This document shows, in pieces, positions 17,696-44,416 of a stretch of 54,351 bases of DNA (the first letter of the stretch is position 1; every line of letters begins with the position of its first letter). The stretch spans positions 1 to 54,351 of the IMG/VR virus record IMGVR_UViG_3300035670_011527. One strand, 5' to 3'. Under the pieces are notes generated by a model. The model worked only from the letters and a program-made list of their open reading frames with translations. It had not been told where the DNA came from and ran no database searches. The stretch is from a virus. A program made the translations under genes and the position numbers.

Positions 17696-18170
17696 GTCAA
17701 CTCCATTTTATTGGTGGAGACGTTTTCCTGTTCAAAAATATAATTCACGTCAATCATTAGTTGATCGTATCAAAGCTGGTGAATTTGATCCTTCTCCTTA
17801 TATTGAACAATCTCTTTGGGAAATTGAATGGATGAAACAAGAAATGGAAGAAGAAACATCCAACTATATCAATCATAATAGTGCTGCTTTTTATGATGAA
17901 GTTGCTGGTCCTATTAAAACTCGTTATATGAAGCGTTTCAAAAAACTTACCGAAGATAGTTGGGCGGATGAAGATAAACGTTTGTCATCATTGATTAAAG
18001 CACTTCGTGTTGAATTTTCGCTTCCAGAAATATTTGTACAAGATTTTCTTTCTGATTTTGATGGAAGTGTGTTGGAAGCATACAATAGTTTGCGTATATT
18101 TTGTGAAAAACATAATAGTGTTATTATGCGTAGGGTATATTTAAAAAACATGTTTAACAATCCATGGTAA
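17664..18170 (+). CDS. Hypothetical phage protein
   Basis: A 168-residue protein beginning with a Pro/Arg/Trp-rich segment (STPFYWWRRFPV), then LVDRIKAGEFDPSPY and a Glu/Lys-rich helical middle with the run WEIEWMKQEMEEE. The composition looks like an intracellular helical protein. Similar short proteins follow nucleotide-metabolism genes in T4-like phages as I recall, but I cannot name a function. The ATG at 17664 lies inside the preceding gene; no later Met leaves the N-terminal motif intact. It overlaps the DpdA-like gene by seven bases. Confidence 0.6.
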   Translation: MIVPPKPTSRKSTPFYWWRRFPVQKYNSRQSLVDRIKAGEFDPSPYIEQSLWEIEWMKQEMEEETSNYINHNSAAFYDEVAGPIKTRYMKRFKKLTEDSWADEDKRLSSLIKALRVEFSLPEIFVQDFLSDFDGSVLEAYNSLRIFCEKHNSVIMRRVYLKNMFNNPW

Positions 18171-18973
18171 ATAAAATCCTGATTAGTCATGAAGTTCCTG
18201 TAAATTTTCTATATGAAAGTAGACAATTTAATGATTATGATTATGCTCTTCCTCATTTGTTAGATAGTGATTCTCAATACAGAGAATATTTCATAAACAG
18301 CAAAAGAGAAGGACGTTATATCATAATGGATAATTCATTACATGAATTAGGAAGTGCTTATGATAATGAACGATTAGTTTATTGGATCAATGAACTTGAA
18401 CCGAATGAATTTATTGTTCCTGATGTATGGGAAGAACATTCTTCTACTTTATATAATGCAAAAGAATGGAAACAATATCAAAAAGATGGAATTATTTCAT
18501 CTAATACTAAATTAGTAGCAGTAGCACAAGGAAAAACCCATTCAGATATATTAACATGTGCCTGGATTTTGGTTAATAACTATGATTATCAAAAAATATC
18601 ATTGAGTTATGGAGCATCAGCATATAATGAAATATTTCCTCATCCCAATCCTTATATTGGAAAAATGTTAGGAAGAATTTATACTGTATCTAAATTAGCA
18701 GAAGAAGAATGGATAAAAAGTGTTAAACTTCATCTATTAGGATGTGCTCTTCCACAAGAATTTTCATATTATAATGACCCCAAATTTAATTTTATAGAAT
18801 CATTAGATACTTCTAATCCTGTTATACATGGAATCATGGGAATTAATTATGAAGAATATGGATTAAATAAAAAACTATCTGTAAAAATTGACACTATTAA
18901 AGAAATAAAAAACAAAGAAATTGTATACAACAATATTGAAAAATTTAGAAAACTTTTAACTTATTACTCATGA
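18164..18973 (+). CDS. dpdA: DpdA-like DNA 7-deazaguanine transglycosylase (TGT superfamily)
   Basis: Candidate enzyme that swaps guanine in DNA for a 7-deazaguanine base. In its 269 residues, YIIMDNSLHELGS matches the Asp-containing substrate loop of tRNA-guanine transglycosylases (DSGGFQ in TGT). VAQGKTHSD fits the middle barrel strand, HLLGCALPQEF fits the H-L-L-G region, and FIESLDTSNPV carries the candidate nucleophile Asp. The tRNA-specific zinc Cys cluster of bacterial TGT is absent, as expected for DpdA. QueC, QueD, QueE and FolE within 5 kb supply the substrate. The alternative, a tRNA enzyme, is less likely given the short length. Confidence 0.78.
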   Translation: MVNKILISHEVPVNFLYESRQFNDYDYALPHLLDSDSQYREYFINSKREGRYIIMDNSLHELGSAYDNERLVYWINELEPNEFIVPDVWEEHSSTLYNAKEWKQYQKDGIISSNTKLVAVAQGKTHSDILTCAWILVNNYDYQKISLSYGASAYNEIFPHPNPYIGKMLGRIYTVSKLAEEEWIKSVKLHLLGCALPQEFSYYNDPKFNFIESLDTSNPVIHGIMGINYEEYGLNKKLSVKIDTIKEIKNKEIVYNNIEKFRKLLTYYS

Positions 18974-19485: not shown

Positions 19486-20283
19486 ATGAAAAATAAACAT
19501 GTAGTAGTTTCACTTAGTGGTGGAATGGATAGCAGTACTTTGTTACTTCATTGTTTGGCACAAAAGATGAATGTAACCGCTCTTAGTTTTGATTATGGTC
19601 AAAAACATAGAGTAGAACTTGAACGTGCACAATCTCTTGTTGATTATCTTAGAGATAATGGACAAGAATTAAGATATCAAGTTATTAAACTTGATGGTCT
19701 TACTAATTTACTTAATTCAGCACTTGTATCTGGTGGAGCAGAAGTTCCAGAAGGTCATTATGCTGAAGAAAACATGAAAGCAACAGTTGTTCCTAACAGA
19801 AATAAAATATTTAGTTCAATTTCTCAGGCAGTTGCTTTGAGTATTTCTAATGAAACTAAAGATATAACTTATCTTGCTTTAGGAATCCATGCAGGAGACC
19901 ATGCGATTTATCCTGATTGCCGACAAGAATTTAGAGATGCAGATATGGACGCTTTTAGGATTGGAAATTGGGAATCTGAATTGGTTGAGTTTTATACCCC
20001 TTATCTCCATACTGATAAATTTGGTATTCTTCAAGATGGTGAGGAGGCGTGTGATACACTTTGTGTAGATTTTGATGAGGTTTATCGACGTACTAATACA
20101 TCTTATAAACCATATCCATCTGGAAATAGTGATTATAAATCTGCTTCTTCAGTAGAACGTATTGAAGCTTTTATTAAACTTGGAAGACCAGATCCAGTAC
20201 AATATGAAGATGAAACGGGTCCTGTTTCTTGGGAAGTAGCTAGAACTCATGTAGAACAAGTATTATCATCTTATGAAGGATAA
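19486..20283 (+). CDS. queC: QueC-like 7-cyano-7-deazaguanine synthase, zinc cysteines lost
   Basis: Converts 7-carboxy-7-deazaguanine to preQ0 using ATP and ammonia. The 265-residue protein has the PP-loop SGGMDSS at residues 11-17 and FDYGQKHRVEL downstream, as in QueC. The usual C-terminal zinc site (C-Y plus CGxCxxCxxR) is recognisable by position but without cysteines: S206-Y207, then D216, S219 and S222 where C is expected, ending V-E-R225. A separate C189/C193 pair exists earlier. The ATG at 19486 follows a candidate pseudoknot. Either the fold is stabilised differently or the activity has changed. Confidence 0.88.
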   Translation: MKNKHVVVSLSGGMDSSTLLLHCLAQKMNVTALSFDYGQKHRVELERAQSLVDYLRDNGQELRYQVIKLDGLTNLLNSALVSGGAEVPEGHYAEENMKATVVPNRNKIFSSISQAVALSISNETKDITYLALGIHAGDHAIYPDCRQEFRDADMDAFRIGNWESELVEFYTPYLHTDKFGILQDGEEACDTLCVDFDEVYRRTNTSYKPYPSGNSDYKSASSVERIEAFIKLGRPDPVQYEDETGPVSWEVARTHVEQVLSSYEG

Positions 20284-20931: not shown

Positions 20932-21396
20932 ATGAAAAAATTTCAATCAACAAAATTATTTGATGGTTTTTCTACATGTTTTAGACAATGGAAAGCCAAA
21001 GGAACCCATTGTAGTTTTGTTCATGGATATGGTGTTTCATTTAGAATTTGGTTTGAGGGTGAATTAGATGAACGCAACTGGGTATGGGATTTTGGAGGAA
21101 TGAAACGTGCCAATGGTCGAATTGATGGAATGACTCCAAAAGAATGGATGGAATATATGTTTGATCATACAGTAGTTGTTGCTGAAGATGATCCTATGAT
21201 GCATTTATTTGTAGAAGCAGGATATGCTGGTATTATTCAACTTCGAGTAATTCCTGCTGTTGGTGCAGAACAATTTGCAAAATTTATTTATGATAAATTA
21301 AATCCATTTATTCTTGAAGAAACTAATAATAGAGTTAAAATAGTTAAAGTAGAATTTTTAGAACACAATAAAAACACAGCAATTTATATACCATAA
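20932..21396 (+). CDS. queD: QueD-like 6-carboxytetrahydropterin synthase, atypical zinc site
   Basis: Predicted to convert dihydroneopterin triphosphate to carboxytetrahydropterin for preQ0 synthesis. The 154 residues align with QueD through FSTCFRQW, HCSFVHGYG and FDHTVVV. The catalytic Cys27, the D-H of FDHT and the Glu near the end (FLEHNKNT) are kept. Of the three zinc His, the first is Phe17 and the third is Tyr33; only His31 remains. The stop overlaps queE by one base (TAATG). Either a different metal site or an altered reaction is likely; family membership itself looks sound. Confidence 0.82.
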   Translation: MKKFQSTKLFDGFSTCFRQWKAKGTHCSFVHGYGVSFRIWFEGELDERNWVWDFGGMKRANGRIDGMTPKEWMEYMFDHTVVVAEDDPMMHLFVEAGYAGIIQLRVIPAVGAEQFAKFIYDKLNPFILEETNNRVKIVKVEFLEHNKNTAIYIP

Positions 21397-22292
21397 TGTC
21401 AATTAATCCAAATAAACTATTAATTTCCAGTGATTTTTACTCAGTACAAGGAGAAGGAATCTCATCTGGAGTACCATCCTATTTTGTAAGACTAGGTGTA
21501 TGCAACCTAAGTTGTGGAATGTCACGAAAATTTCTTAATGAACTAGTTAAAGCTAAAGAACTAGAAGATGGAGAAATTTTTGTAGGTGATCTACATGCTG
21601 AAGGTAAAGCTACCTGGACTTGTGATAGTACAACTCAATGGGCGTGGCGAGGTGAAGATAAAGAATTTCAATATCTGTTTGATAGATGGAAAGAACAGGA
21701 TATTTTAGAAGATATCAGTTCTGGAACCATTCATATTATATGGACTGGTGGAGAACCTACCATTCCACAACATCAACAAAATATCGTAGATTTTACAGAA
21801 TATGCCATTAGACATAAATACTTTACTGGTTTTATTGCAAGTGGTGATCATTGGGAAAATGGAGAACGTATAACAGATGCTTACCCAATAATCTCTGGTC
21901 CTTATTATGAAATTGAAACTAATGGAACATTTTATATTAATGATAAATTATTTAAATTACTAGATCAGATTAATTGCTCCCCTAAACTTACCAACACAGG
22001 TATGAGTGAAAAACAGCGTATTAAACCAGAAGCAATTAAACGTATTATGGAACATGATAATTATCAATTTAAATTTGTTATTAGCACAGAAGACGATGTA
22101 AAAGAACTATTTAGAGATTTTGTAGAACCTTTTAATATACCTCTTAAAAATGTTGTGTGTATGCCGGGGTTAGATAGTCAAGACGATTTCCATGAACGAA
22201 CCGAATTTGTTCTTGAACTTGCTAAAAAATATAAATTTAGAGGACTTACACGACTTCATATTAGTGCTTGGGATAAAACATTAAACGTTTAA
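21396..22292 (+). CDS. queE: QueE-like radical SAM 7-carboxy-7-deazaguanine synthase, expanded cluster loop
   Basis: Predicted radical SAM enzyme making 7-carboxy-7-deazaguanine. The start SSDFYSVQGEG and SSGVPSYFVRLGVCNLSC are QueE hallmarks. The three cluster cysteines are C36, C40 and, I infer, C76 (TWTCDS), giving C-x3-C-x35-C where QueE normally has C-x3-C-x2-C; the segment between looks inserted. IIWTGGEPT supplies the SAM-binding GGEP. At 298 residues it is longer than most bacterial QueE (~220). It follows queD and precedes a phosphoribosyltransferase by one base. Confidence 0.85.
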   Translation: MSINPNKLLISSDFYSVQGEGISSGVPSYFVRLGVCNLSCGMSRKFLNELVKAKELEDGEIFVGDLHAEGKATWTCDSTTQWAWRGEDKEFQYLFDRWKEQDILEDISSGTIHIIWTGGEPTIPQHQQNIVDFTEYAIRHKYFTGFIASGDHWENGERITDAYPIISGPYYEIETNGTFYINDKLFKLLDQINCSPKLTNTGMSEKQRIKPEAIKRIMEHDNYQFKFVISTEDDVKELFRDFVEPFNIPLKNVVCMPGLDSQDDFHERTEFVLELAKKYKFRGLTRLHISAWDKTLNV

Positions 22293-22293
22293 T

Positions 22294-22698
22294 ATGGATA
22301 AAATATTTTATAATTGGGATGATGTTTCGCGAGCAATAGATTTTTTAGCATATTTGCTTAGAAACGAATCTATAAATCTAATTACTGGTTTACCTCGAGG
22401 AGGTCTTATTCCAGCTGTTATGCTTTCCCATAAGATGAATATTAAATATATTAACATTAATAAAACAAAACGAAAACAATTTAATACTATTGCTTTAGTA
22501 GATGATATTTGTGATTCAGGAAATACTATTAAAGGATATAATGAAATGGGATTTATTACAATTTGTATTGATAAAAAACATTCTTCGGTTGTGTCTCCTA
22601 ATTATTTTTCATATATTGCCCCTGATGACAAATATATTGTCTATCCTTGGGAAAACCCAGAATCTAAACCTATAGCTGATTATTTAAAAAATGATTGA
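22294..22698 (+). CDS. Phosphoribosyltransferase-family protein
   Basis: A 134-residue type I phosphoribosyltransferase. The PRPP-binding loop LVDDICDSGNT (residues ~69-79) and the first loop TGLPRGGLIPAV are clear. It begins one base after queE and overlaps folE by eight bases, so it is cotranslated with the deazaguanine block. A role in base salvage, or in joining a ribose-phosphate to a deazaguanine base, is possible but not shown. It is small compared with hypoxanthine enzymes (~180 aa) and lacks their hood region. Confidence 0.78.
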   Translation: MDKIFYNWDDVSRAIDFLAYLLRNESINLITGLPRGGLIPAVMLSHKMNIKYININKTKRKQFNTIALVDDICDSGNTIKGYNEMGFITICIDKKHSSVVSPNYFSYIAPDDKYIVYPWENPESKPIADYLKND

Positions 22699-23422
22699 AA
22701 ATAAAAGACGAAAAAAAGTAAATATTGAAGAGCTGGAAACAGCTCAATTTGGTTATGCAAATGGTATTTCAACTCAGCTGCAAAAACTAATAGAAACAGG
22801 TGAACACCGTTCACTTACACAACAAGAAAAACAAGAAATGGTTAAAGAAGCCGCTGAACATTATGGTAAATTTCTTACTGCTCTTGGTTGTGATTGGCAA
22901 AATGATCCTAACTCAATGGAAACTCCTTGGAGAGTTGCTAAAGCATATGTAAATGATCTTTGGAAAGGTAGATATGAACTTCCATCTGATATTACAGCAT
23001 TTCCTTCTGATGGTTATAGAGGTATTATTCTTGAAAAAGATATTTCTGTTGTAAGTCAGTGTTCACATCACCATCAAACAATCCTGGGTAAAGCACATGT
23101 CGCTTATATTCCTGGAGAAGAAGGAAAAGTAATTGGTTTGAGTAAAATTAATAGAATTGTAGAACATTTTGCTCGTAGAGGAGCCATTCAAGAACAACTT
23201 ACTGTAGCTATTCATAATGCTATGGATAAAATTTGTGAAGGTAATGTTGGTGTTATGGTAGTAATTCAAGCAACTCATAATTGCGTTGCCTGTAGAGGTG
23301 TTAAACATATGGGAGCAAGTATGATTACCAGTGAAGTAAGTGGAGTATTTGCAGATCATACCAAAACAGCCAAGCAAGAAGTACTTGGTTATATTAAAAT
23401 GAATCTAGAAACATATAAATAA
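22691..23422 (+). CDS. folE: GTP cyclohydrolase I
   Basis: First enzyme of the deazaguanine (and folate) pathway: GTP to dihydroneopterin triphosphate. The 243 residues keep the zinc ligands in SQCSHHH (Cys and the His three later) and in HNCVACRGV (Cys), plus GLSKINRIVEHFARR and QEQLTVAIHNAM. The N-terminal ~60 residues are a charged extension. Unlike the neighbouring QueC and QueD, its metal site is fully canonical. It supplies the QueD substrate and so completes a GTP-to-preQ0 route inside the phage. Confidence 0.92.
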   Translation: MIENKRRKKVNIEELETAQFGYANGISTQLQKLIETGEHRSLTQQEKQEMVKEAAEHYGKFLTALGCDWQNDPNSMETPWRVAKAYVNDLWKGRYELPSDITAFPSDGYRGIILEKDISVVSQCSHHHQTILGKAHVAYIPGEEGKVIGLSKINRIVEHFARRGAIQEQLTVAIHNAMDKICEGNVGVMVVIQATHNCVACRGVKHMGASMITSEVSGVFADHTKTAKQEVLGYIKMNLETYK

Positions 23423-32280: not shown

Positions 32281-32478
32281 ATGTCAAAAAACAATTTAAA
32301 ATTAACATCAGTAAAAATAGATGATGAATTGTTTGAAGAATTTAAAATTAATGCTATTAAACATAAAACATCGCTACAAAAAGTAGTTAATCGTACTTTA
32401 GATTTATATAACAGAGATGAAAAATTCAGAGAAATAATTCACAATCATAATGAACTAAAAGATAAAGGAAATTTATGA
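32281..32478 (+). CDS. Ribbon-helix-helix DNA-binding protein
   Basis: A 65-residue protein with the beta strand LTSVKIDDELFEEFK and a helix-turn-helix-like second half SLQKVVNRTLDLY, the pattern of MetJ/Arc-type dimeric repressors. It opens the glycosylation block and overlaps the first glycosyltransferase by four bases. Its tandem upstream repeats could be its own operator. Family confidence is moderate; DNA binding is inferred. Confidence 0.68.
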   Translation: MSKNNLKLTSVKIDDELFEEFKINAIKHKTSLQKVVNRTLDLYNRDEKFREIIHNHNELKDKGNL

Positions 32479-33950
32479 AAGAAGGGTATTTACCCCCTTT
32501 TGAACGAAAAACAATATTACTATTATCAGACGATTGCAGAATGTTTAGCGGTATCGCGACAATGTCTCGCGAACTTATATTAAATACTTGTCATAGATAT
32601 AATTGGATTCAATTGGGGGCAGCAATTAAACATCCGGATCAAGGAAAGATGTTTGATTTAGGTGAAAGTGCAAAAACAGAAACAGGAGTACCTGATCCAC
32701 AAATCAAAGTTATTCCTTGGGATGGATATGGAGATCCTACAATTTTAAGACAATTGTTATCTCAATTTAAACCTGATGCTCTGATGCATTTTACTGATCC
32801 GAGATATTGGGTTTGGTTATATCAAATGGAACATGAGATAAGAAAAAAAATACCTATTTTTTATTATAATATTTGGGATGATATTCCTTATCCATTTTGG
32901 AATCGCGATTACTATAAGAGTTGTGATATGCTTTTAAACATTTCAAAACAAACAAACAATATTGTTAAAAATGTTTTAAGAGGAGAAAATTATAAAGATT
33001 GGCAAATTCAATATGTTCCTCATGGAATTGATTCTAAAAAATATTTTCCTATTTTAAAAAAAGACAAAAAATACGAAAAATTTAGAGAAGAATTTTTAGA
33101 AGGAAAAGAATATGATTTTATAGCATTCTATAATGCTAGAAATATCAGACGAAAAAATGTATCTGATATTATATTAAGTTGGAGAACATTTACAGATCAA
33201 TTATCACCAGAAAAAGCAAGAAGATGCTTATTAGTTTTACATACTTCTCCAGCTGATGAAAATGGTACTGATTTAAACGCAGTTATTGAAACTTTCTGTA
33301 ATCAAGATACTGCTCAAGTTAAATTTACATTAAAACCACATCAAACAAGTAATGAAGAACTTAATTATTATTACAATATGTCTGATGTTCATATTTTTAT
33401 GAGCAGTAATGAAGGATGGGGATTAGGATTGACTGAATCATTAATGTCTGGAACTATGATTATTGCTCCTGTAACTGGAGGTATGCAAGACCAAATGAGG
33501 TTTGAAGATGAAAATGGAAATTGGATTGAATTTAGCGAAGAATTTGGTTCAAACCATAATGGTCAATATAAAAAATGTGGTAGATGGGCTATTCCAATGT
33601 TTCCTGGATCACGTAGTATAAAAGGTAGTATTCCTACTCCATATATTTCTGATGATACTTGTGATTTTGAAAATGGTGCTCTTGCTCTTTTAGAAACATA
33701 TAATCTTGGAAAAGAAGAAAGAATCAAACGAGGATTAGAAGGAAGAGAATGGGTTCTTTCAGATGAAGCAATGATGAGTGCTGAAAATATGGGCAAAAAT
33801 TTAATTAAAAATGTTGATATTTTATTTGAAAATTGGAAACCTCGTGAAAGATTTAGTATAGAAAATATTACTAAGATACCAAATAATTATCAAAATTATC
33901 CAATGCCTTTTACCCCCGAATTTAAAAATAAACTTAAAGAATTAATATAA
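32475..33950 (+). CDS. Glycosyltransferase, GT-B fold (GT4-like)
   Basis: A 491-residue sugar transferase. SSNEGWGLGLTESLMSGT near residue 310 is the E-x7-E donor-binding region of GT4-type enzymes, and LLLSDDCRMFSGIATMSREL at the N-terminus fits the acceptor domain glycine loop. The HGID motif and a basic KNVSD patch follow the usual order. Substrates cannot be read from sequence. It is the first of a run of glycan genes and is directly followed by a second GT-B enzyme. Confidence 0.82.
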   Translation: MKEGYLPPFERKTILLLSDDCRMFSGIATMSRELILNTCHRYNWIQLGAAIKHPDQGKMFDLGESAKTETGVPDPQIKVIPWDGYGDPTILRQLLSQFKPDALMHFTDPRYWVWLYQMEHEIRKKIPIFYYNIWDDIPYPFWNRDYYKSCDMLLNISKQTNNIVKNVLRGENYKDWQIQYVPHGIDSKKYFPILKKDKKYEKFREEFLEGKEYDFIAFYNARNIRRKNVSDIILSWRTFTDQLSPEKARRCLLVLHTSPADENGTDLNAVIETFCNQDTAQVKFTLKPHQTSNEELNYYYNMSDVHIFMSSNEGWGLGLTESLMSGTMIIAPVTGGMQDQMRFEDENGNWIEFSEEFGSNHNGQYKKCGRWAIPMFPGSRSIKGSIPTPYISDDTCDFENGALALLETYNLGKEERIKRGLEGREWVLSDEAMMSAENMGKNLIKNVDILFENWKPRERFSIENITKIPNNYQNYPMPFTPEFKNKLKELI

Positions 33951-35267
33951 ATGAAAAAACTGTGTATTGTATCATGTCCAATAGATACACTTTCAGGATA
34001 CGGAAGTCGTAGTAGAGATTTGGTACGTTCTTTAATAAAACTTAAAGATGACAAATGGGATATTAAAATTTTAGCTCAACGTTGGGGTAATACTCCTTGG
34101 GGAGTTTTAGATCCAGAAAAAGATATAGATCTTATTTCTCGTCTTGTTCCTAATATTCACCGCAAACCAGATGTATGGATTCAGATTACTGTTCCTAATG
34201 AATTTCAACCAGTAGGAAACATAAATATAGGTGTTACAGCAGGAATAGAAACAACTATATGTCCTCCTCAATGGATAGAGGGATGTAATAGAATGAATCT
34301 AGTATTAACTTCTAGTAATCATAGTAAAAAAGTATTTGAATCTGTTCAATTTAAAGTAGCAAATGAGCAAGGTCAACCTACTGGACAAGAAATAAAATTA
34401 ACAACTCCTGTTGAAGTATTATTTGAAGGATTTGATACTGATATTTACAAACATATTGAATCTTCTAATATTCTGCCTTCTGTAAATGATTTAATGAGTT
34501 CTGTAAAAGAAAATTTTGCTTTTCTTTTAGTAGGACATTGGTTACCTGGTAATTTAGGAGAAGATAGAAAAAATATAGGATTGACTATTAAAACATTTTT
34601 AGAAGCATTTAAAACAACAAATAATCCTCCTGCTCTTGTTATTAAAACTAGTTTAGGAACTAATAGTATAATGGATCAATCTGAAGTTAAAAAACGTATT
34701 TTTGATATTAAAAAACTAGTTCTTAAAAATTCTGAAAAATCACCTAATATTTACTTAATACATGGAGAATTAAGTGATGAAGAAATGAATCATTTATATA
34801 ATCATCCAAAAATTAAAGCACATATTAATTTAACTAAAGGTGAAGGATTTGGTCGTCCATTATTAGAAGCATCTCTATCTAAAAAACCTATAATAGCAAG
34901 TAATTGGAGTGGACATTTAGATTTTTTAAATTCTAATCATACATTTTTAGTTAAAGGAAACTTAGCACAGGTACATGAATCTGCTGTTAGGGAACAAGGA
35001 GTGATGAAAGAAGCACAATGGTTTAGTTTTAATATATCTGAAGCAAAAGATATAATGAAAGAAATTTTTAAAAATTATATAAAATATAAAGAAAAATCAA
35101 TAAGACAATATGTGCATGTTTCGAATTTTACATGGGATAAAATGACAGAATTATTAGAAACATATTTAGAAAAATATGTTAAATTACCTGAACTTGTACA
35201 ACTTAAATTACCACAACTTAAAAAGATTGAGCTTCCTAAAATTTCTAAATTAACTAAAAATGATTAA
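33951..35267 (+). CDS. Glycosyltransferase, GT-B fold
   Basis: A 438-residue transferase starting KKLCIVSCPIDTLSGYGSRS and carrying LTKGEGFGRPLLEASLSKKP and IIASNWSGHLDFL, the donor-binding pattern of GT4-type enzymes. The C-terminal ~60 residues are Lys/Leu-rich (KLPELVQLKLPQLKK), possibly a membrane-surface helix. It starts at the base after the preceding stop and overlaps the next gene by eight bases. Substrate unknown. Confidence 0.8.
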   Translation: MKKLCIVSCPIDTLSGYGSRSRDLVRSLIKLKDDKWDIKILAQRWGNTPWGVLDPEKDIDLISRLVPNIHRKPDVWIQITVPNEFQPVGNINIGVTAGIETTICPPQWIEGCNRMNLVLTSSNHSKKVFESVQFKVANEQGQPTGQEIKLTTPVEVLFEGFDTDIYKHIESSNILPSVNDLMSSVKENFAFLLVGHWLPGNLGEDRKNIGLTIKTFLEAFKTTNNPPALVIKTSLGTNSIMDQSEVKKRIFDIKKLVLKNSEKSPNIYLIHGELSDEEMNHLYNHPKIKAHINLTKGEGFGRPLLEASLSKKPIIASNWSGHLDFLNSNHTFLVKGNLAQVHESAVREQGVMKEAQWFSFNISEAKDIMKEIFKNYIKYKEKSIRQYVHVSNFTWDKMTELLETYLEKYVKLPELVQLKLPQLKKIELPKISKLTKND

Positions 35268-35694
35268 TACTAATATAATTTCTTGTCCTTGTTGCAACGA
35301 TGGAGCGTGTATTGAAACCAAAACAGAGTATATAACTTTATGGTCTTGTCAAACATGTGGTTATCAAACCAACTCCAGAATGACAGATGGAGCCGAACAT
35401 GTATTAAAATATCATTCTACTTTACCTAATTTAATGCAAGATTTAAAAAAAGAAATAAATGAATTAGTATGGTATCCTAGTGTGGTTAATCTTGAAAAAA
35501 AAGGAATGGTTTTTCCAGATGGAAAAAGCATTGATGATTGGAAATGGACAGCTATTTTAGCTGTAGAAGTACCAGAAGAAGAAAGAAATCAATTTAAAGG
35601 AGCTACTCATAAAATGGATATGACTACTTCTCAACAATTTGAAAGAATGGAGTTTATGGAAGCTCTTGATTATATTGGATTTTATAAACCTTAA
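35260..35694 (+). CDS. Zinc-ribbon hypothetical protein
   Basis: A 144-residue protein with two Cys pairs at the N-terminus, CPCCNDG and CQTCGYQT, forming a likely zinc ribbon, then an acidic C-terminal domain with DDWKWTAILAVEV. The C-terminal half resembles proteins I have seen beside phage structural or replication genes, but I cannot name it. It overlaps the upstream glycosyltransferase by eight bases. Confidence 0.6.
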   Translation: MINTNIISCPCCNDGACIETKTEYITLWSCQTCGYQTNSRMTDGAEHVLKYHSTLPNLMQDLKKEINELVWYPSVVNLEKKGMVFPDGKSIDDWKWTAILAVEVPEEERNQFKGATHKMDMTTSQQFERMEFMEALDYIGFYKP

Positions 35695-35705
35695 TTATTA
35701 AAAAA

Positions 35706-36305
35706 ATGAAAAAATCTTTATTAACATTAGTTACATTATTTGTTGTATCCCAAACAACATTTGCACAACTCCGAGATTCGGTATTGGTTGAAAAACCTAT
35801 ATTTAGAATCATGTATTCTGAAACCAAAGAACAACCACTTTGGGTAGAATATACGGTTAGAAAAATTACAAAGGGAGCAGATAGAAAGGGAATGGATTTC
35901 TTTGAAGAAAGTGATTACCATACTTCAAATAATTACGATTATGTAAGTAATGAATGGGATAAAGGACATATGGCTCCCGCTGCTCATTTTGCTGATACAA
36001 AACAAAATTTAGCACAAACATTTACATATCTAAATTCAGCACTTCAACATCAAAAATTGAATAGAGTTCAGTGGAGATTGTTAGAAGAAAAAGAAAGAGA
36101 ATGGGCTGAAGTATTTGGTGAGTTGGATGTAAGAGTGGATGTTATTTTTGATGACGTACCACAGGTGTTACCAACAGGAGCAGAAATTCCTGATGCATTC
36201 TACAAAAGAATTTATTTTCGTAGTACCCAAAAGTGGCAATGTTATTATTTCTTGAATGAACCACCTACCAAACCTTGGAATGAATACGAAGTAGAATGTA
36301 AATGA
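35706..36305 (+). CDS. Secreted DNA/RNA non-specific endonuclease (NUC1-type)
   Basis: A 199-residue nuclease with an N-terminal signal peptide (residues 1-20, ending FAQ) and the beta-beta-alpha-metal core: DKGHMAPAAHF carries the catalytic His in its D-x-GH setting, and TYLNSALQHQKLNRVQW provides the metal-binding Asn, as in Serratia-type nucleases. Export implies action in the periplasm or outside the cell, so it could degrade DNA released there or block superinfecting DNA. The signal peptide style is typical of Bacteroidetes. It overlaps the next gene by four bases. Confidence 0.82.
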   Translation: MKKSLLTLVTLFVVSQTTFAQLRDSVLVEKPIFRIMYSETKEQPLWVEYTVRKITKGADRKGMDFFEESDYHTSNNYDYVSNEWDKGHMAPAAHFADTKQNLAQTFTYLNSALQHQKLNRVQWRLLEEKEREWAEVFGELDVRVDVIFDDVPQVLPTGAEIPDAFYKRIYFRSTQKWQCYYFLNEPPTKPWNEYEVECK

Positions 36306-36925
36306 TTACTATAAGTTATGCTATTACTGTAAAAGATGAATTAAAAGAAATTCAACAACTAGTTCCTTTTCTTTTAAAGAATAAAAGACCCAAGGATGAA
36401 ATAGTTATTCTTTATGATCAAAGAAATGGTGATGAAAGAGTAGTAGATTATTTACTTGAGTATAATAAACTTCCTAATGTTCAAACATGGAGAGGTTTTT
36501 TTGATAATCATTTTGCAGAATGGAAAAATAAACTTACAGAATATTGTAAAAATGATTATATATTCCAGATAGATGCAGACGAAATACCTCATATATCTTT
36601 ATTACAAAATCTTCCAATAATACTAGAAGACAATAACATAGATTTGATATTAGTTCCTAGAGTAAATACTGTAGAAGGAATCACACAAGAACATATTAAT
36701 AAATGGGGTTGGAGAATAAATGAAAATAATTGGATTAATTATCCGGATTATCAATTTCGTGTTTATAAAAACATTTCAACAATTAAATGGGTAAATAAAG
36801 TGCATGAAAGACTTGAGGGATATGAAAATATTTCGTATCTTCCTGCTGAAGAAGAATGGAGTTTATATCATCCCAAAACAATAGAACGCCAAGAAAAACA
36901 AAATAATTATTATAATACCTTATGA
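36302..36925 (+). CDS. Glycosyltransferase family 2-like (GT-A)
   Basis: A 207-residue transferase. DEIVILYDQRNGDERV gives the nucleotide-binding start, and DYIFQIDADEIPH provides a D-x-D type metal site. The later HERLEGYENI and YHPKTIERQ fit the C-terminal region of small GT2 enzymes acting on LPS-like acceptors. It overlaps the next gene by four bases. Substrate unknown. Confidence 0.72.
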   Translation: MITISYAITVKDELKEIQQLVPFLLKNKRPKDEIVILYDQRNGDERVVDYLLEYNKLPNVQTWRGFFDNHFAEWKNKLTEYCKNDYIFQIDADEIPHISLLQNLPIILEDNNIDLILVPRVNTVEGITQEHINKWGWRINENNWINYPDYQFRVYKNISTIKWVNKVHERLEGYENISYLPAEEEWSLYHPKTIERQEKQNNYYNTL

Positions 36926-37350
36926 GAAAATATTTACCTACATTAAGTGAACTAATAGATAGATTAAGCATTGTACAACTAAAAGAAGTTTTTATAGTTG
37001 AACATAAAAATGAATATGCTCAAGAAATAAAAGATATTATCCATGATATCAATGAAATTATTTCAGAATCTAAAGATTTAACTATTGACGGAGATTTTAT
37101 AAGGGCAATTATTGTTTTATCACAGATGAATTTACATATATGGCATAATGAATCTAATTATAGAAAAGGTATAAGAGATGGTAATAATTTAGAATTAACC
37201 CATGGATTAAATGGAATTAGAAATACTGCTAAAAATAAAATTCAAGAAAAAGTCGGTGGTAGAAAAGATTATAAAATAGATTGTTTAGCAGCTGAATTCA
37301 AAGATTGGGAAATAAGTTGGAAGGATAATTTAAATAATGATAATAGGTAA
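36922..37350 (+). CDS. Hypothetical protein of glycan clusters
   Basis: A 142-residue protein with TLSELIDRLSIVQLKEVF, a motif I associate with small proteins found beside glycosylation genes in phages and bacteria, and a C-terminal half with GIRDGNNLEL and KIDCLAAEF. No enzymatic motif is visible. It overlaps both neighbours, indicating a single operon with the transferases. Confidence 0.55.
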   Translation: MRKYLPTLSELIDRLSIVQLKEVFIVEHKNEYAQEIKDIIHDINEIISESKDLTIDGDFIRAIIVLSQMNLHIWHNESNYRKGIRDGNNLELTHGLNGIRNTAKNKIQEKVGGRKDYKIDCLAAEFKDWEISWKDNLNNDNR

Positions 37351-37840
37351 TGGTAGTATAGCTAGTGTTCTTCCAAATAGAGAAGACCTAGTATTTTTTG
37401 CATCTGGAGTAAGTAATAGTTCATGTATTGATGAAAAAGAATATGAACGTGAGTTTAATCTATTAAAAACAGTTCCTATCGATCAACATATAGTATATTT
37501 TTCTAATTTAGGAATATATTATAAAAAAGATAGATATACTCAGCATAAAATAGATATTGAAGAATATATTAGAACTAATTATTATAGTTATACTATTGTT
37601 AGAATAGAAGTTTGTGAATGGGTAAAAACTCCTAATACTATTTTAAATTTTTTTAAAAGACAATTAAATGAAGGTATAGAACCCATTATTCAAGATACAA
37701 CCAGATATGTTTTAAGTTTAAATGAATTTTTATATTGGATAAATATGATAAAAGCAGGAGTAAAAAATGAAATGAATATATTGGGTAGGAAAATGACTAT
37801 ATCTCAAATAGTTGAAGATATAAAACAAGGAAAATTATGA
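37337..37840 (+). CDS. Short NAD-binding sugar reductase-like protein
   Basis: A 167-residue Rossmann-like protein: MIIGNGSIAS opens the nucleotide-binding strand, DLVFFASGVSNSSC follows, and VYFSNLGIYYKKDRYTQHK reads like the S-x10-Y-x3-K region of short-chain sugar epimerases (Tyr and Lys in YTQHK). It is only about half the length of full epimerases. It may act on a nucleotide sugar of the surrounding cluster. The match is by pattern only. Confidence 0.6.
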   Translation: MIIGNGSIASVLPNREDLVFFASGVSNSSCIDEKEYEREFNLLKTVPIDQHIVYFSNLGIYYKKDRYTQHKIDIEEYIRTNYYSYTIVRIEVCEWVKTPNTILNFFKRQLNEGIEPIIQDTTRYVLSLNEFLYWINMIKAGVKNEMNILGRKMTISQIVEDIKQGKL

Positions 37841-38757
37841 CCAAAATTAAATTATATTATTTAATAATGCCTTGGCAGATAGATTATGCCTTATTATCAT
37901 TTAGTCAATTTAAAAGATCAAAATATCACTTACCAGAAGACATAGAAATAACAATAGATACTCATTTAAATTTATCTAATTACATAGTTGATTGGGATAA
38001 TAGCCAATTATCTAAAGAGTTTTTTATTAAAAAATATAATGATTTAGCAATTCTATTAAAAGACTATAAACATAATAATATCATATATGAAGGAGATGAT
38101 AATTATGGGTTATTAGATATGCAAAAGCAAGCCTATGGTAAAGAATTTGATTATTATATTTCTACTTGCCCCGATATCTATTTTAGTGAATATTTATTAT
38201 TCTATCTTATAGAATCAGCTAAATTAGTAAAAAATAAATATTTTGTTATTACTCCAGAAATTCATAAAATGTGGGATTGGACATGGGATGAAATAACTAA
38301 TGATCTTTATAAAGATATTCCTTATGATAAATGGAATTCTCCAGATATATTTGATATTGAATATAATTTGAAAAATAATAACAAAGATAGAACCTTAGAA
38401 CCAACTGAAAAAAGTAAATGGGCAATATGGTTTGATATTTGTAATAAGGCTTTTTACGAAGATTTATGTCCTCTTCATGATGATTGGATTGGTTATGGTC
38501 CTTGGGATTGGTATTCAATGATGCTATCAGAATATGCAAAAAATAAAGGCGTTGACTTTCAACAGTATGTTTTACGAGGTGAAACTATCTTTGAGTATTC
38601 TACTGGTCCTTTAAAAGATAGAAATTTTACTAGTTCTTATAAAGATTTTTTAAAAATTAAAGTAGGAGCAAATGAACAAAGAAAAAAATTTGAAGCTCGA
38701 ATGGAAGAATATCTTCAAAAAGGTATCCAAATGATTAAAGATAAAAATATAATATGA
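37837..38757 (+). CDS. Probable glycosyltransferase-like protein
   Basis: A 306-residue protein rich in Tyr, Asp and Trp. ISTCPDIYFSEYLLFY near residue 110 and HDDWIGYGPWDWYSMM near 213 are its distinctive parts. A GT-A-like assignment rests on overall look and its place between transferases; no D-x-D context convinces me. It overlaps its neighbours by four bases on both sides. Confidence 0.45.
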   Translation: MTKIKLYYLIMPWQIDYALLSFSQFKRSKYHLPEDIEITIDTHLNLSNYIVDWDNSQLSKEFFIKKYNDLAILLKDYKHNNIIYEGDDNYGLLDMQKQAYGKEFDYYISTCPDIYFSEYLLFYLIESAKLVKNKYFVITPEIHKMWDWTWDEITNDLYKDIPYDKWNSPDIFDIEYNLKNNNKDRTLEPTEKSKWAIWFDICNKAFYEDLCPLHDDWIGYGPWDWYSMMLSEYAKNKGVDFQQYVLRGETIFEYSTGPLKDRNFTSSYKDFLKIKVGANEQRKKFEARMEEYLQKGIQMIKDKNII

Positions 38758-39389
38758 TTACAGAAAGCTATTTAGGAGAAACTATTGATAAATTAATCTC
38801 CTTTTTCAAATTAAATATTAAAGGAGTTTTACATGTTGGTGCTCATCAATGTGAAGAACAAAATGTGTATTTAAAGCATATTTTTAAAGAAAATATATAT
38901 TGGATAGAAGCTATAGATAGTTTAGTTGAAAAAAATCTTCAAGAAAATCCAGAATTAAATATAATAAATGAATGTATAGGAGAAGAGGATGGTAAAAATG
39001 TTATATTTAATATATCTAATAATACTTTAAGTTCATCTATTTTAAAATTAGGTGAGCATAAAAATATTCATCCTAATGTAAAAATTGTTGATTTTTTAAA
39101 TAAAAAAACTAAAACTCTTAAAACAATCATAATAGAAAATAATTTAAAAGATAGATTTAATTTATTAGTATTAGATTTACAAGGAGCAGAATTAATGGCA
39201 TTAAAAGGTTTAGGAAATATGTTAGAAGATTTTGATTTTATTTTTACAGAAGTAAACGAAAAAGAAATTTATATAAATTGTGCATTATTAGAAGATTTAG
39301 ACGATTATTTAAAAGGTTTTAATTTTAATAGAAAATATTTAAACACACTTAACAATTATGGAAATGCATTATACATCAAAAAACATTGA
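38754..39389 (+). CDS. FkbM-family methyltransferase
   Basis: A 211-residue SAM-dependent methyltransferase. GVLHVGAHQCEEQNVY is the FkbM SAM-binding start, WIEAIDSL the acidic second strand, and LLVLDLQGAELMALKG the family-specific G-x-E motif. FkbM enzymes often O-methylate sugars, which suits the glycan block. The C-terminal 30 bases overlap the oxygenase gene. Confidence 0.85.
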   Translation: MITESYLGETIDKLISFFKLNIKGVLHVGAHQCEEQNVYLKHIFKENIYWIEAIDSLVEKNLQENPELNIINECIGEEDGKNVIFNISNNTLSSSILKLGEHKNIHPNVKIVDFLNKKTKTLKTIIIENNLKDRFNLLVLDLQGAELMALKGLGNMLEDFDFIFTEVNEKEIYINCALLEDLDDYLKGFNFNRKYLNTLNNYGNALYIKKH

Positions 39390-39981
39390 AGAATTAAATA
39401 CTAAAGGACTTACTCATATAGATAATGTTTTACCTTTAGATTTAGCTAATCAGATATATGAACTTTATGAAAAAGAAACCGAATGGTCTCTCATAGACCA
39501 GGTTAGGCCACATCATTATAATCATGTTTTTAAATCACCTAATCCTTATCTACCTCATGAAGATGAAGCATACTCTGCTAGATTTAGTAGATCAAATATT
39601 TTGGAGAACAACGAAATTATTAAAGATATTTTTAATAAACATTTATTTCCTTTTGCTAAAACACTTTCTCCTTTTGAAATTAATGAATATGATATAAGAT
39701 GTTATAAATTAGATTCTGGAGATCATTATCGAACTCATATTGACGATTATGCTGGTTCTATTAATATGATATATTATGTTAACAAAAATTGGAGATGGGA
39801 TTGGGGTGGTATTTTAAATGTTTTATCTCATGATGATTTAGATTTTTGTGAATCTATATTTCCTCGATTTAATAGAATTACTTTATTAAATAATAAAATA
39901 TTTAGAGCCCCCCATTTTGTTAGTACTATTGAACAATATGCTCAGAATCCTCGATATACTATTGTATCTTTTAATAAATAA
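39358..39981 (+). CDS. 2-oxoglutarate/Fe(II)-dependent oxygenase-like
   Basis: A 207-residue prolyl-4-hydroxylase-type oxygenase. The iron-binding H-x-D is in YRTHIDDYAG, the distal His is in APHFVSTI, and the 2-oxoglutarate-binding Arg is in PRYTIVSF. INMIYYVNKNWRWDWGG fits the double-stranded beta helix strand. The likely start is the ATG at 39358, or the ATG six bases later, inside the methyltransferase gene. A role in hydroxylating a sugar or a protein is inferred from neighbours. Confidence 0.8.
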   Translation: MEMHYTSKNIEELNTKGLTHIDNVLPLDLANQIYELYEKETEWSLIDQVRPHHYNHVFKSPNPYLPHEDEAYSARFSRSNILENNEIIKDIFNKHLFPFAKTLSPFEINEYDIRCYKLDSGDHYRTHIDDYAGSINMIYYVNKNWRWDWGGILNVLSHDDLDFCESIFPRFNRITLLNNKIFRAPHFVSTIEQYAQNPRYTIVSFNK

Positions 39982-39984
39982 TAT

Positions 39985-40872
39985 ATGATTGTGTTTTCTA
40001 ATTTTAGAGATTCTAAAACAGATCCATATATGGTTTTTATACAAGAACAGTATAAAGATAAGCCATTTACTTTTTGGTATGATAAATTTCCAGAAAATTT
40101 AGATCAATTAAAATATAACCCATATAATTTTTTATTTTTACATGAACCCGATGAATTTTTTGGTTTTCATAAATATGCTTTAAACCATCATTCTTACTTT
40201 TCAGCAATACTAACATGGAATAATCTATTGTTACATAATTTAAATAATGCAATTAATTTTACTTATAATGGGCAAACATTAGATAATGAATATATTACAC
40301 AGAATCATGATTTGAAAGAATTTAATGTATCTTTTTTATGTGGAACTAAAAATTTAGTTGAAGGACATCATTTAAGACAAAAAATATATAAATTAGAAGA
40401 TTTAGTAAAAATACCTAAAAAATGGTATTATGTGTTAGAAGATTATGATTTTGAAAATAATGCTCGTCCAGGATATTCTGATTATTCTAAAGATTTATCT
40501 CATATTCCAAATGGAATAGATCCTATTGGGTATGGTAGAAGAGTTTTATTTAATAATTCTATGTTTAATATCGTTGTTGAAAATGTAAAATATAATAATT
40601 GGTATAATAAAATAGGAGATAATTTTGTTTCTAAAACTATCCCCATTTACTGGGGATGCCCTAATATAAAAGAATTTGGTTATGATGAAAGAGGAATTAT
40701 TAGATTTGAAAATGAAAAAGAATTATTAGATATTATAAATAATTTGACTTCTCAAGATTATTTTAATAAATTAGAATATATTGAACATAATTACAATGTT
40801 GCAGTAGTTGATACTTTTGAAAATAATATTACTCAATTTTTTGATCAATTTTGTATTTTAAATAATTTATGA
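39985..40872 (+). CDS. GT10 fucosyltransferase-like glycosyltransferase
   Basis: A 295-residue enzyme. The C-terminal region FNIVVENVKYNNWY followed by VSKTIPIYWGCPNI is the conserved GT10 (alpha-1,3/4-fucosyltransferase) donor motif, in which E-N and the K-x-I-P-x-x-x-G pattern bind GDP-fucose. GDP-linked deoxysugar enzymes lie downstream, so the donor could be a GDP-6-deoxyhexose and not fucose itself. The start follows the oxygenase by three bases, and the end overlaps the epimerase by four. Confidence 0.78.
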   Translation: MIVFSNFRDSKTDPYMVFIQEQYKDKPFTFWYDKFPENLDQLKYNPYNFLFLHEPDEFFGFHKYALNHHSYFSAILTWNNLLLHNLNNAINFTYNGQTLDNEYITQNHDLKEFNVSFLCGTKNLVEGHHLRQKIYKLEDLVKIPKKWYYVLEDYDFENNARPGYSDYSKDLSHIPNGIDPIGYGRRVLFNNSMFNIVVENVKYNNWYNKIGDNFVSKTIPIYWGCPNIKEFGYDERGIIRFENEKELLDIINNLTSQDYFNKLEYIEHNYNVAVVDTFENNITQFFDQFCILNNL

Positions 40873-41345
40873 TATTTCCTGAAGTAAAAATATTTCAACC
40901 AGATGTTTTCGAAGATTTTAGAGGAGAATTATTCACTCTATTTAAACAAGAAGACCATGATTTAGTTTTTAATCATGATAAAGTATCTATTTCAAAACAA
41001 TATGTTTTACGAGGATTACATGGTGATCACAAATCATGGAAACTAGTTACATGTTTAGCAGGTGAAATATATTTTGTAATAGTAGATAATAGATCCGATT
41101 CTCCTAATTATTTAAAATGGGATTGGACGATACTTACAGCAAAAAATAGACGTTCAGTATTAATTCCCCCTATGTTTGCTAATGGACATTACATTATTAG
41201 TAAAGAAGCTACATTTTTTTATAAATGGTCATATAAAGGTGATTATCCAGATGTAAAAGATCAATTTACTTTAAAATGGGATGATCCCAATATAGGAATT
41301 CATTGGCCTATTTCTGATCCAATATTATCTAAAAGGGATAAATAA
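40869..41345 (+). CDS. RmlC-like sugar 3,5-epimerase
   Basis: A 158-residue cupin-fold protein. YVLRGLHGD has the catalytic His position of RmlC, LVTCLAGEIYFVIVDNR the central strands, and VLIPPMFANGHYI the substrate-side segment. It looks like dTDP-4-keto-6-deoxyhexose epimerases, though a GDP-sugar or a different substrate is possible. A 41-base AT-rich gap follows. Confidence 0.8.
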   Translation: MIFPEVKIFQPDVFEDFRGELFTLFKQEDHDLVFNHDKVSISKQYVLRGLHGDHKSWKLVTCLAGEIYFVIVDNRSDSPNYLKWDWTILTAKNRRSVLIPPMFANGHYIISKEATFFYKWSYKGDYPDVKDQFTLKWDDPNIGIHWPISDPILSKRDK

Positions 41346-41371
41346 TATTTGGAAATTAACTTAAAATTTAT

Positions 41372-41377
41372 TATATT
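41372..41377 (+). promoter_or_regulatory. Possible -10 element before thiamine enzyme gene
   Basis: TATATT lies nine bases before the ATG at 41387, in one of the few gaps of the glycan block, between stretches of A and T. It repeats the core found before genes at 9565, 27075 and 52516. The AT-rich context makes chance occurrence possible. Confidence 0.25.
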
Positions 41378-41386
41378 TAATTAAAT

Positions 41387-42013
41387 ATGAATATTCCAAA
41401 ACACTATACTAAAGTTAGAGATATAGATCTTACACCAAATGATCTTATTTCTTTTGAAGATAAAGTAAAAAATGCTTATGAGACTGCTCAAGTGAGAGGT
41501 CCTGTACACTTATCAAAAAATAATGAAGAACAATTAATAGAGTTATTTCAATATATTCATCCTAAAGATTGGGTGTTATCAGCATGGAGAAATCATTATC
41601 ATGCTTTGCTTCATGGAATAGATCCTGATAAATTGTTTGAATGGATTAGTGAAGGTAGAAGTATGGGTATAAATAATGTTAATCCTAATTTTTATGCTTC
41701 ATCTATTGTTGGAGGTATTATTCCCATATCTTTAGGAATAGCCGCAGGATTAAAAAGATCAAATTCTTCACAAAGAGTATGGTGTTTTATAGGTGATATG
41801 ACTATGGAAACAGGAGTATTTTGGGAAGCATATAAATATTCTCAAAATATGAATTTACCTCTTCAGTTTGTAGTAGAAGACAATAATTTAAGTGTTCATA
41901 CTCCAACAGATATAGCTTGGGGTAAAAGAATGGATGTTCCTCCAAATGTAATTTATTATCAATATAAAATGTCCTATCCCCATCATGGAACAGGTAAATG
42001 GGTAAACTTTTAA
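41387..42013 (+). CDS. Thiamine-diphosphate enzyme, E1 alpha-like (PP) subunit
   Basis: A 208-residue subunit resembling the TPP-binding half of E1 alpha dehydrogenases or split transketolases. The motif starts at IGDMTMETGVFWEAYKYSQ and ends in VVEDNNLSVHT, giving GD-x(~27)-NN. Position five bases ahead of the Pyr-domain partner makes a two-gene enzyme. No lipoyl E2 or E3 gene is present, so it probably does a carbon-carbon bond reaction on a sugar rather than oxidative decarboxylation. It is ~100 residues shorter than E1 alpha. Confidence 0.75.
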   Translation: MNIPKHYTKVRDIDLTPNDLISFEDKVKNAYETAQVRGPVHLSKNNEEQLIELFQYIHPKDWVLSAWRNHYHALLHGIDPDKLFEWISEGRSMGINNVNPNFYASSIVGGIIPISLGIAAGLKRSNSSQRVWCFIGDMTMETGVFWEAYKYSQNMNLPLQFVVEDNNLSVHTPTDIAWGKRMDVPPNVIYYQYKMSYPHHGTGKWVNF

Positions 42014-42017
42014 AAAT

Positions 42018-42548
42018 ATGAAATACAGAGAAGAATTAATAAGATCAATGGAATGGTTAGCCACTAAACCAGATATTGTATTTACAGGTCAAGCTATAGG
42101 AATGTCAGGTCATGCTATTTCTGGTACTGTATCTACTGTTCCTCAAGATAAAAGAATAGAATTACCAGTATTTGAAGAAACCCAATTAGGAATGGCTACA
42201 GGAATGGCTTTAACAGGATGGGTTCCTGTTACTGCTTATCCTCGTTTTGATTTTTTTATTTTATCTTTAAATCAATTAGTTAACCATTTAGATAAAATAC
42301 AAGACATGTCTAAAGGAGACATGAAACCCAAAGTGATTATTCGAGTAGCTATAGGTTCTAAAATTCCATTCAGTGCAGGTCCTCAACATACTCAAGATCA
42401 TACTGAAGCAATACGTAAAATGCTTACTGAAGTAGAAGTAGTAGAATTAATAGAACCTGAAGATATTTTTCCTGCTTTTGAAAAAGCTTATAATAGCGAT
42501 AAATCAACTTTAATTATTGAACATAGTGAATATTATGGAAGTAAATAA
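42018..42548 (+). CDS. Thiamine-diphosphate enzyme, E1 beta-like (Pyr) subunit
   Basis: A 176-residue partner of the preceding subunit. FEETQLGMATGMALTGWVPV carries the catalytic Glu that activates thiamine, followed by YPRFDFFILSLNQLVNHLDK and the HTQDHTE segment typical of E1 beta/transketolase Pyr domains. The usual C-terminal transketolase domain is missing. It overlaps the next gene by 14 bases. Confidence 0.75.
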   Translation: MKYREELIRSMEWLATKPDIVFTGQAIGMSGHAISGTVSTVPQDKRIELPVFEETQLGMATGMALTGWVPVTAYPRFDFFILSLNQLVNHLDKIQDMSKGDMKPKVIIRVAIGSKIPFSAGPQHTQDHTEAIRKMLTEVEVVELIEPEDIFPAFEKAYNSDKSTLIIEHSEYYGSK

Positions 42549-43251
42549 ATATATTTCAATTTTAATTAGTTCTAGAGAACATGATAGAAAAAATTCAGGA
42601 AATTTAATAAATTTTTTAACTTCTTTAAGAAATTCTATTTCAAATCCAAATAATATTGAAGTTATTTTTAAATTTGATAAAGATGATGATATTATAGAAG
42701 GAAAACTGAATGAAGCTAAAGAAAAATGTCCTGATTTAAATGTTAAATATGTCATATCAGATAGATATGGTTATTTAGGTTTACATAAAGCGTATTATGA
42801 TTGTTTGAAGGAAGTAGATTCTAATTCTAAAGTAATAGTAATATTAGCAGATGATTTTGATTTTCATAGAGAAAGAAACTGGGATTTAGATATTATTAAA
42901 AATTCATTTCATATTCAAGATGAACCTTTTATAGTACAAGATAGTAGAAAAATAGGAAAGATGCATGATATTCCTACATTTAGTAAAAAAATTATAGATT
43001 TAGTAACTTTAGGTAATTCTTTAAGTGTAGATGGTTTTTTAATAGATTTATGTGAAATATATTTAAGAAATAATTTAAATAATTACATTGTATTTGTACC
43101 TGAATTTACTTCTAGAAAACATTGTAATTACGATGTAGGAATAGAAAGAAAAATAGAAAGTAATAAACTAGGAACATATTTAGCTTCTCAAGAATATAAA
43201 GAATTTTTAAAAAATTGTGAAAATAAAATAAAAAATTATTTTAATATCTAA
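42535..43251 (+). CDS. Glycosyltransferase-like (GT-A) protein
   Basis: A 238-residue protein. I start it at ATG 42535, which overlaps the upstream stop, and not at an earlier TTG (42517). NKYISILISSREH and IFKFDKDDDIIEG resemble a GT-A nucleotide-sugar site with D-x-D, and VIVILADDFDFHRERNW reads like a GT2-type acidic site near the acceptor. Substrate unknown. Confidence 0.6.
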   Translation: MEVNKYISILISSREHDRKNSGNLINFLTSLRNSISNPNNIEVIFKFDKDDDIIEGKLNEAKEKCPDLNVKYVISDRYGYLGLHKAYYDCLKEVDSNSKVIVILADDFDFHRERNWDLDIIKNSFHIQDEPFIVQDSRKIGKMHDIPTFSKKIIDLVTLGNSLSVDGFLIDLCEIYLRNNLNNYIVFVPEFTSRKHCNYDVGIERKIESNKLGTYLASQEYKEFLKNCENKIKNYFNI

Positions 43252-43252
43252 T

Positions 43253-44416
43253 ATGAAATATACTTGGCCTTTAATTAATGATAACATCACTCAAGGTGAT
43301 AGAAAAATTTTAGCTGATTTTTGTCTAAATGGTGAGCGTTTTACGAATGGACCTAAAGTAAAAGAATTTGAAGAAATTTGGTCTAAATGGTTGGGTGTTA
43401 AATATTCCGTAATGGTAAATTCAGGTGCTTCAGCCAATTATATTTCTATTGCTATGGTAAAAGAATTAGTAGGTGAAGGAGAAGTAATTGTTCCTCCTAT
43501 TGGTTGGGTTTCAGATATATCTTCAGTTGCTCAATTAGGTATGACACCTGTATTTGTGGATGTTTCACTTGATGATTTTAATATTACATCTGAAAATATT
43601 AGAAATGCTATTACACCAAAAACTAAAGCAATTGTATTAGTTCATACATTAGGATTTCCAGCAATTAATGATGAAATTATTCAAATCGCTAAAGATAATA
43701 ATTTAATTTTAATTGAAGATTGTTGTGAAGCACATGGTGCTGTTTATAATAATCAACGTGTAGGTTCATTTGGGGATATTTCATTATTTTCATTTTATTT
43801 TGGTCATCATATTACTACTATTGAAGGTGGCACTATTTGTGTAAATGATGATAAATTATATGACCTAGCTAAATTATTTCGTTCACATGGAATGACTCGT
43901 GAAGCATCTCAAGAATTACAACGTGATTACCAGTTGATGTATCCTAATTTAAATCCATTATTTACATTTGCTGTAGCTGGGTTTAATATGCGTCCAACTG
44001 AACTAAACGCAGTGTTAGGTATTGAGCAAATGAAACGTTTAGATTCTAATATAGAACGTAGAAGAGAAAATCTTGATATTTGGTTAGACAACCTTGATAA
44101 TTCAAAATTTATGACTTTTTTTAAAAGACAAGGAAATAGTAATTTTGCTTTACCTCTTATGATGCAAGAAATTACTCGAAATAAATTAAAAAATATTTGT
44201 AATATTTTAGATAAAGAAAAGGTAGAATATCGTTTAGGAACAGCTGGAGGAGGAAATCAGGCACGTCAGCCATATTTGAAAAAATTTCCTCACAGAATAG
44301 AAGGAACATTATCTAAAGCAAATTATGTTCACAATAATGCTTTATATATAGGAAATCACACAGATTTAACTAAAGAACAAATTATTAACTTATGTAACAA
44401 ATTAAACAATGTTTAA
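43253..44416 (+). CDS. ColD/RfbH-like PLP-dependent sugar 3-dehydratase (DegT family)
   Basis: A 387-residue PLP enzyme. MVNSGASANY, DVSLDDFNIT, LIEDCCEAHGA and SLFSFYFGHHITTIEGG are the DegT/DnrJ/EryC1 landmarks. The Lys that normally holds PLP, in the S-F-x-x-x-K-x-x-x-x-G-E-G-G setting, is His here (FGHHITTIEGG). That His is the hallmark of the 3-dehydratases ColD and RfbH/E1, which remove the C3 hydroxyl of 4-keto-6-deoxy sugars. It is followed by NAD-dependent sugar enzymes. A GDP- or CDP-linked 3,6-dideoxyhexose intermediate is the likely product. Confidence 0.82.
   Translation: MKYTWPLINDNITQGDRKILADFCLNGERFTNGPKVKEFEEIWSKWLGVKYSVMVNSGASANYISIAMVKELVGEGEVIVPPIGWVSDISSVAQLGMTPVFVDVSLDDFNITSENIRNAITPKTKAIVLVHTLGFPAINDEIIQIAKDNNLILIEDCCEAHGAVYNNQRVGSFGDISLFSFYFGHHITTIEGGTICVNDDKLYDLAKLFRSHGMTREASQELQRDYQLMYPNLNPLFTFAVAGFNMRPTELNAVLGIEQMKRLDSNIERRRENLDIWLDNLDNSKFMTFFKRQGNSNFALPLMMQEITRNKLKNICNILDKEKVEYRLGTAGGGNQARQPYLKKFPHRIEGTLSKANYVHNNALYIGNHTDLTKEQIINLCNKLNNV

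Follow-up and report, generated by a model that had tools for sequence, protein, structure and literature searches.

The QueC homologue of the phage analysed here has lost all four cysteines of the QueC zinc site, has retained the catalytic residues of the family, and carries in place of the zinc site a replacement that is conserved throughout its clade. The protein, a zinc-free variant of the 7-cyano-7-deazaguanine synthase family with 265 amino acids, is encoded on the plus strand at positions 19486..20283 of an IMG/VR virus record, a 54 kb piece of a tailed-phage genome (the whole piece is called the window below). We consider it likely that this QueC is a working, metal-free but otherwise ordinary preQ0 synthase that feeds a DpdA3-type transglycosylase encoded in the same operon. 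The substitutions are not confined to the window, and zinc loss extends to dozens of related phages and to a second phage lineage.

The former zinc site and the active site

Since the QueC start lies at 19486, nucleotides 20101..20160 (+) correspond exactly to residues 206-225 (SYKPYPSGNSDYKSASSVER). Alignment with cellular and phage QueC sequences placed S206, D216, S219 and S222 at the four zinc ligand positions, which bears out the original prediction that all four ligands are gone, while the tyrosine after the first lost ligand (Y207) and the arginine after the last one (R225) are retained. The replacement consists of two motifs, TNTSYKP (residues 203-209, 20092..20112, +) and SDYKSASSVER (residues 215-225, 20128..20160, +). 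We also asked whether C189 and C193 might serve as substitute zinc ligands, an assignment that had been named as one that would overturn the claim. It was rejected, as cysteine is found at position 189 in 46 of the 70 clade members and at position 193 in only one, so that neither is a conserved ligand.

In contrast to the zinc site, the catalytic motifs are complete. The PP-loop SGGMDS (residues 11-16, 19516..19533, +) is intact as predicted (S11-G12-G13-M14-D15-S16), and S11, G12, G13, D15 and S16 are invariant in a set of 86 zinc-free and Cys4 sequences. In the same set, Y37, G38, H41 and E44 are invariant in the YxQxHxxE motif (residues 37-44, 19594..19617, +), which matches the motif around Y35 of E. 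coli QueC, as are V102, P103, R105 and N106 in the VPxRN motif (residues 102-106, 19789..19803, +). Within YPDC (residues 142-145, 19909..19920, +), Y142 is invariant and P143, D144 and C145 are conserved in at least 90%. K178 (20017..20019, +), the equivalent of the conserved K165 of E. coli, is invariant, and so are D138, P172, Y207, R225 and D236. According to a survey of the QueC family (PMC13329287), alanine at Y35, R99, Y131 or Y189 of E. coli QueC abolishes function; the equivalents in the window are Y37, R105, Y142 and Y207. The same survey calls zinc required for function and, in the parts consulted, describes no zinc-free canonical QueC (PMC13329287), and we found no assay of any zinc-free QueC in the literature. 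Canonical enzymes (E. coli QueC and B. subtilis QueC, 3BL5) thus share with the window QueC the fold, the PP-loop, the YxQxHxxE, VPxRN and YPDC motifs, the conserved lysine, the essential tyrosine and the pathway neighbours, whereas the window enzyme lacks the four zinc cysteines. It is recognised as QueC by PHROG and by Pfam (127 bits against a cut-off of 22), but its score for the NCBIfam equivalog TIGR00364 is 122, below the cut-off of 150.

Structure prediction, which had been proposed as a check, gave an AlphaFold model with a mean pLDDT of 93 and with blocks over residues 201-230 at 90-96; the model is no proof of metal-free stability, because AlphaFold does not model metals. The best PDB matches were the QueC structures 2pg3 and 3bl5 (target TM 0.73-0.80), and Cap9 was the fourth-best. 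This match, together with the repeated repurposing of the QueC fold, is what favours a recruitment of the protein to a different reaction, for instance the coupling of a deazaguanine to a protein in the manner of Cap9 or QatC. These anti-phage defence proteins share the QueC fold and the PP-loop with the window enzyme, but both retain the zinc site, the active site of QatC is remodelled and Cap9 is shorter. In addition, the window QueC has the full canonical catalytic signature and is surrounded by a folE-queD-queE-dpdA operon, and neither a CD-NTase nor qatA, qatB or qatD was recognised among the neighbouring genes examined, which makes repurposing very unlikely.

Conservation and independent origins of the zinc-free state

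Among 216 sampled homologues whose sequences were read by eye, 141 have all four cysteines (one of them with a column gap that shifts the second ligand by one column), 75 have none, and no intermediates were found. The SY/D/S/S replacement is present in all 70 distinct members of the window clade, in answer to the suggestion that the same substitutions be sought in related phages, and it is shared by the best 80 IMG/VR relatives, by Flavobacterium phage immuto (Immutovirus), and by three MAG contigs. With the replacement shared among the best IMG/VR relatives, neither chance nor a sequencing error can account for the loss; within this set, the one deviation is Ser221 to Ala in one contig (L023), at a non-ligand position. 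Many active cellular QueCs with the same loss had been named as a further finding that would overturn the claim; no bona fide cellular QueC in the sample has lost the site, and the three matches labelled as genomes that have (L102-L104, the MAG contigs) have phage-type neighbours.

Across the 70 clade members, conservation peaks, among the stretches measured, at residues 202-209 and 215-228 (mean conservation 0.996 and 0.994, compared to a mean of 0.833). With the window sequence as reference, the 22 codons of the replacement site showed 669 synonymous and 5 non-synonymous differences. Over the whole gene, the median dN/dS of the QueC clade comes to about 0.15, although dS approaches saturation. 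These codon comparisons support very strong purifying selection on the replacement, and the cysteine loss is a conserved state and not decay. That the gene is decaying or inactive, with preQ0 coming from a host QueC, would fit the loss of a hallmark site and the frequent presence of QueC in hosts; given that selection centres on the replaced site, that the active site is invariant and that QueC is present in 20 of the 20 related records examined, it is hardly credible.

A second zinc-free group was found in Iggyvirus and in Rhizobium, Stenotrophomonas, Sphingomonas, Acinetobacter, Dinoroseobacter, Pseudanabaena and Microcystis phages. As in the window enzyme, the QueCs of Iggyvirus and of the Rhizobium, Sphingomonas, Dinoroseobacter and Stenotrophomonas phages have lost the four cysteines and kept the essential tyrosine and the catalytic motifs. 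In contrast, the residues that replace the zinc site are different and unrelated (HTSYDG...NHSNLLR), and the C-terminus is longer. When the zinc columns were left out of the tree, this group adjoined the QueCs of CAjan and a Cellulophaga phage and was distant from the window clade, and a single shared origin of both groups was rejected (AU test, p = 1.4e-6). Zinc loss thus arose at least twice independently in phages. In a second tree, the second group requires two changes instead of one, so it may contain more than one loss event; the extra change is probably caused by the Cys4 sequence of Vibrio phage GR7B, the nearest Cys4 relative. GR7B has two adjacent QueC-family genes (L270:877-2467), one Cys4 and the other shorter and more divergent.

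The two lineages also bear on whether the former zinc site might have kept its metal by means of other residues, or have switched to a different metal or to a cluster. Such a site is favoured by the invariant D216 of the window clade and by a histidine that is conserved in the corresponding segment of the other lineage. However, in the window clade the segment has no conserved cysteine or histidine, the residues that have become invariant there are for the most part Ser, Thr, Asn, Lys, Tyr and Pro, all suited to hydrogen bonds, and the replacements are unrelated between the lineages; we therefore regard another metal site as quite unlikely. The original prediction had read the loss of every ligand either as selection for a metal-free fold or as a changed reaction, for example a stop at the amide intermediate. 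The first half is supported by purifying selection, by the all-or-none pattern of loss, and by the confident AlphaFold region; we infer from these data that the protein folds without metal.

The deazaguanine operon and the product of QueC

In the window, folE, queD and queE adjoin a gene for a DpdA3-type DNA guanine transglycosylase (18164..18973, +), which is 42% identical to the DpdA of immuto and 35% identical to the homologues of Campylobacter phages CP220 and CPt10; its close isolate relatives were found only in immuto and Campylobacter phages. A transglycosylase of this type was found in 20 of 20 related records. The DpdA3 subfamily and a dPreQ1 formyltransferase (DpdN) were reportedly described by Cui et al. 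in 2023, the source of the name that we apply to the window enzyme. No cysteine is among its near-invariant residues, so its TGT-type zinc site seems to be missing too. The QueD gene (20932..21396, +; PF01242, PHROG QueD) encodes a variant in which, by alignment, only one of the three canonical zinc histidines remains, with F17 and Y33 at the lost positions and with C27 and H31 retained. This FRQ...HGY form of QueD is also found in immuto, Iggy and Cellulophaga phi3ST:2, and it adjoins Cys4 QueC as well; forms retaining the first histidine were seen in L219 and L227. QueE (radical SAM; 21396..22292, +; PHROG QueE) has a Cx3Cx35C spacing due to a 35-residue insertion between its second and third cluster cysteines (21501-21623, +), where the QueEs of immuto and Cellulophaga phages have shorter insertions. 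FolE (GTP cyclohydrolase I; 22691..23422, +; PF01227, 152.6 bits) retains its zinc ligands in CSHHH and HNC motifs. Beside the operon lies a phosphoribosyltransferase gene (22294..22698, +; PHROG, NCBIfam), which recurs near queE or folE in many related loci and perhaps serves to recycle the guanine freed by the base exchange of DpdA3. At 32475-50387 (+) lies an extended run of genes that, judged from their translations alone, belong to sugar and cofactor metabolism and resemble glycosyltransferases, epimerases, an aminotransferase, transketolase halves, a sugar kinase and a cytidylyltransferase.

The second half of the original reading, the stop at the amide, is not supported. If zinc loss turned QueC into an amide synthase, 7-amido-7-deazaguanine would be released and inserted by DpdA3 as dADG. 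The nearest characterised relatives of the window DpdA3 are those of CP220 and CPt10, in whose DNA the guanines are fully replaced (100% of G) by dADG (PMC8306585), and QueF was seen neither in the window nor in contigs of its sub-group. In CP220 and CPt10, however, the DpdA3-type transglycosylase is paired with a QueC that retains all four cysteines, which shows that dADG does not need zinc loss, and the window departs from this pairing in having DpdA3 with a zinc-free QueC. Moreover, of 44 records from the zinc-free clade, 19 contain a QueF above the family cut-off, among them all records of 97 kb or more. QueF consumes the nitrile, and its catalytic cysteine and aspartate were intact in the ten QueFs that were read. 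Each of 20 related records checked contains exactly one QueC, so that the zinc-free enzyme is the sole QueC of the phage. The QueC of immuto is 63% identical to that of the window and has the same SY/D/S/S replacement; immuto also encodes a DpdA3, with QueF and a formyltransferase nearby, and differs from the window in having these two genes and a family A DNA polymerase. In the second lineage, QueF lies two genes after the zinc-free QueC in Dinoroseobacter phage R5C and Pseudanabaena phage Pan1, and the DNA of Pseudomonas phage Iggy, whose QueC is zinc-free and whose DpdA is different from that of the window, is reported to contain dPreQ0 (PMC11008142, citing Olsen 2023). Zinc loss and an amide product are thus uncoupled in both directions, and we judge the conversion to an amide synthase unlikely. 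Taken together, the genomic context points to the nitrile as the product.

The window itself belongs to a sub-group defined by a DpdA3 gene adjoining QueC and by a family B polymerase. No QueF was found in the 54 kb of the window or in sub-group contigs up to 81 kb, with the exception of the short L023, where a zinc-free QueC, a distant DpdA3, QueF and a formyltransferase-like gene lie in a row (L023:1567-5155). A scan with DpdA yielded five longer contigs of this sub-group, none of them complete. The DNA of the window phage may therefore receive dPreQ0 directly, or dADG, or the phage may have a QueF elsewhere. A related reading, to which we give a slightly better though still small chance than to the amide synthase, is that the deazaguanine pathway of this sub-group is largely independent of zinc (QueC, QueD and the small DpdA3) and that, QueF being absent, the QueC variant itself changes the end product.

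A probable metal-free preQ0 synthase and the role of the QueC zinc

For the preferred reading, that of a metal-free preQ0 synthase, we propose that a hydrogen-bonded loop without metal has taken the place of the structural zinc knuckle of QueC. Elsewhere in the family, the knuckle probably keeps the essential tyrosine (Y189 in E. coli, Y207 here) and the C-terminal helix in place above the active site, and the TNTSYKP...SDYKSASSVER motif would take over this positioning. With ATP and ammonia, the zinc-free enzyme would then turn 7-carboxy-7-deazaguanine first into the amide and then into the nitrile preQ0, as ordinary QueC does. The preQ0 would pass to the neighbouring DpdA3-type transglycosylase, to be exchanged for guanine in the phage DNA, either directly or, in immuto-like relatives, as the product reduced by QueF. 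Hosts such as P. aeruginosa have their own QueC, and a host enzyme could supply the preQ0, which counts against this proposal.

QueC has two hallmarks, of which the zinc motif is one, and the family literature treats this motif as required. Functional phage QueCs will be overlooked where annotation relies on the zinc motif or on the cut-off of the NCBIfam equivalog. The two independent zinc-free lineages are a natural experiment on the role of the QueC zinc, and they offer metal-free preQ0 synthases for structural work and enzymology. Both lack the zinc site and keep all catalytic residues, which predicts that zinc acts in QueC as a structural clamp and not as a catalyst. Taken together, these results suggest that the zinc is probably dispensable, and that its loss is not the mark of a new chemistry.
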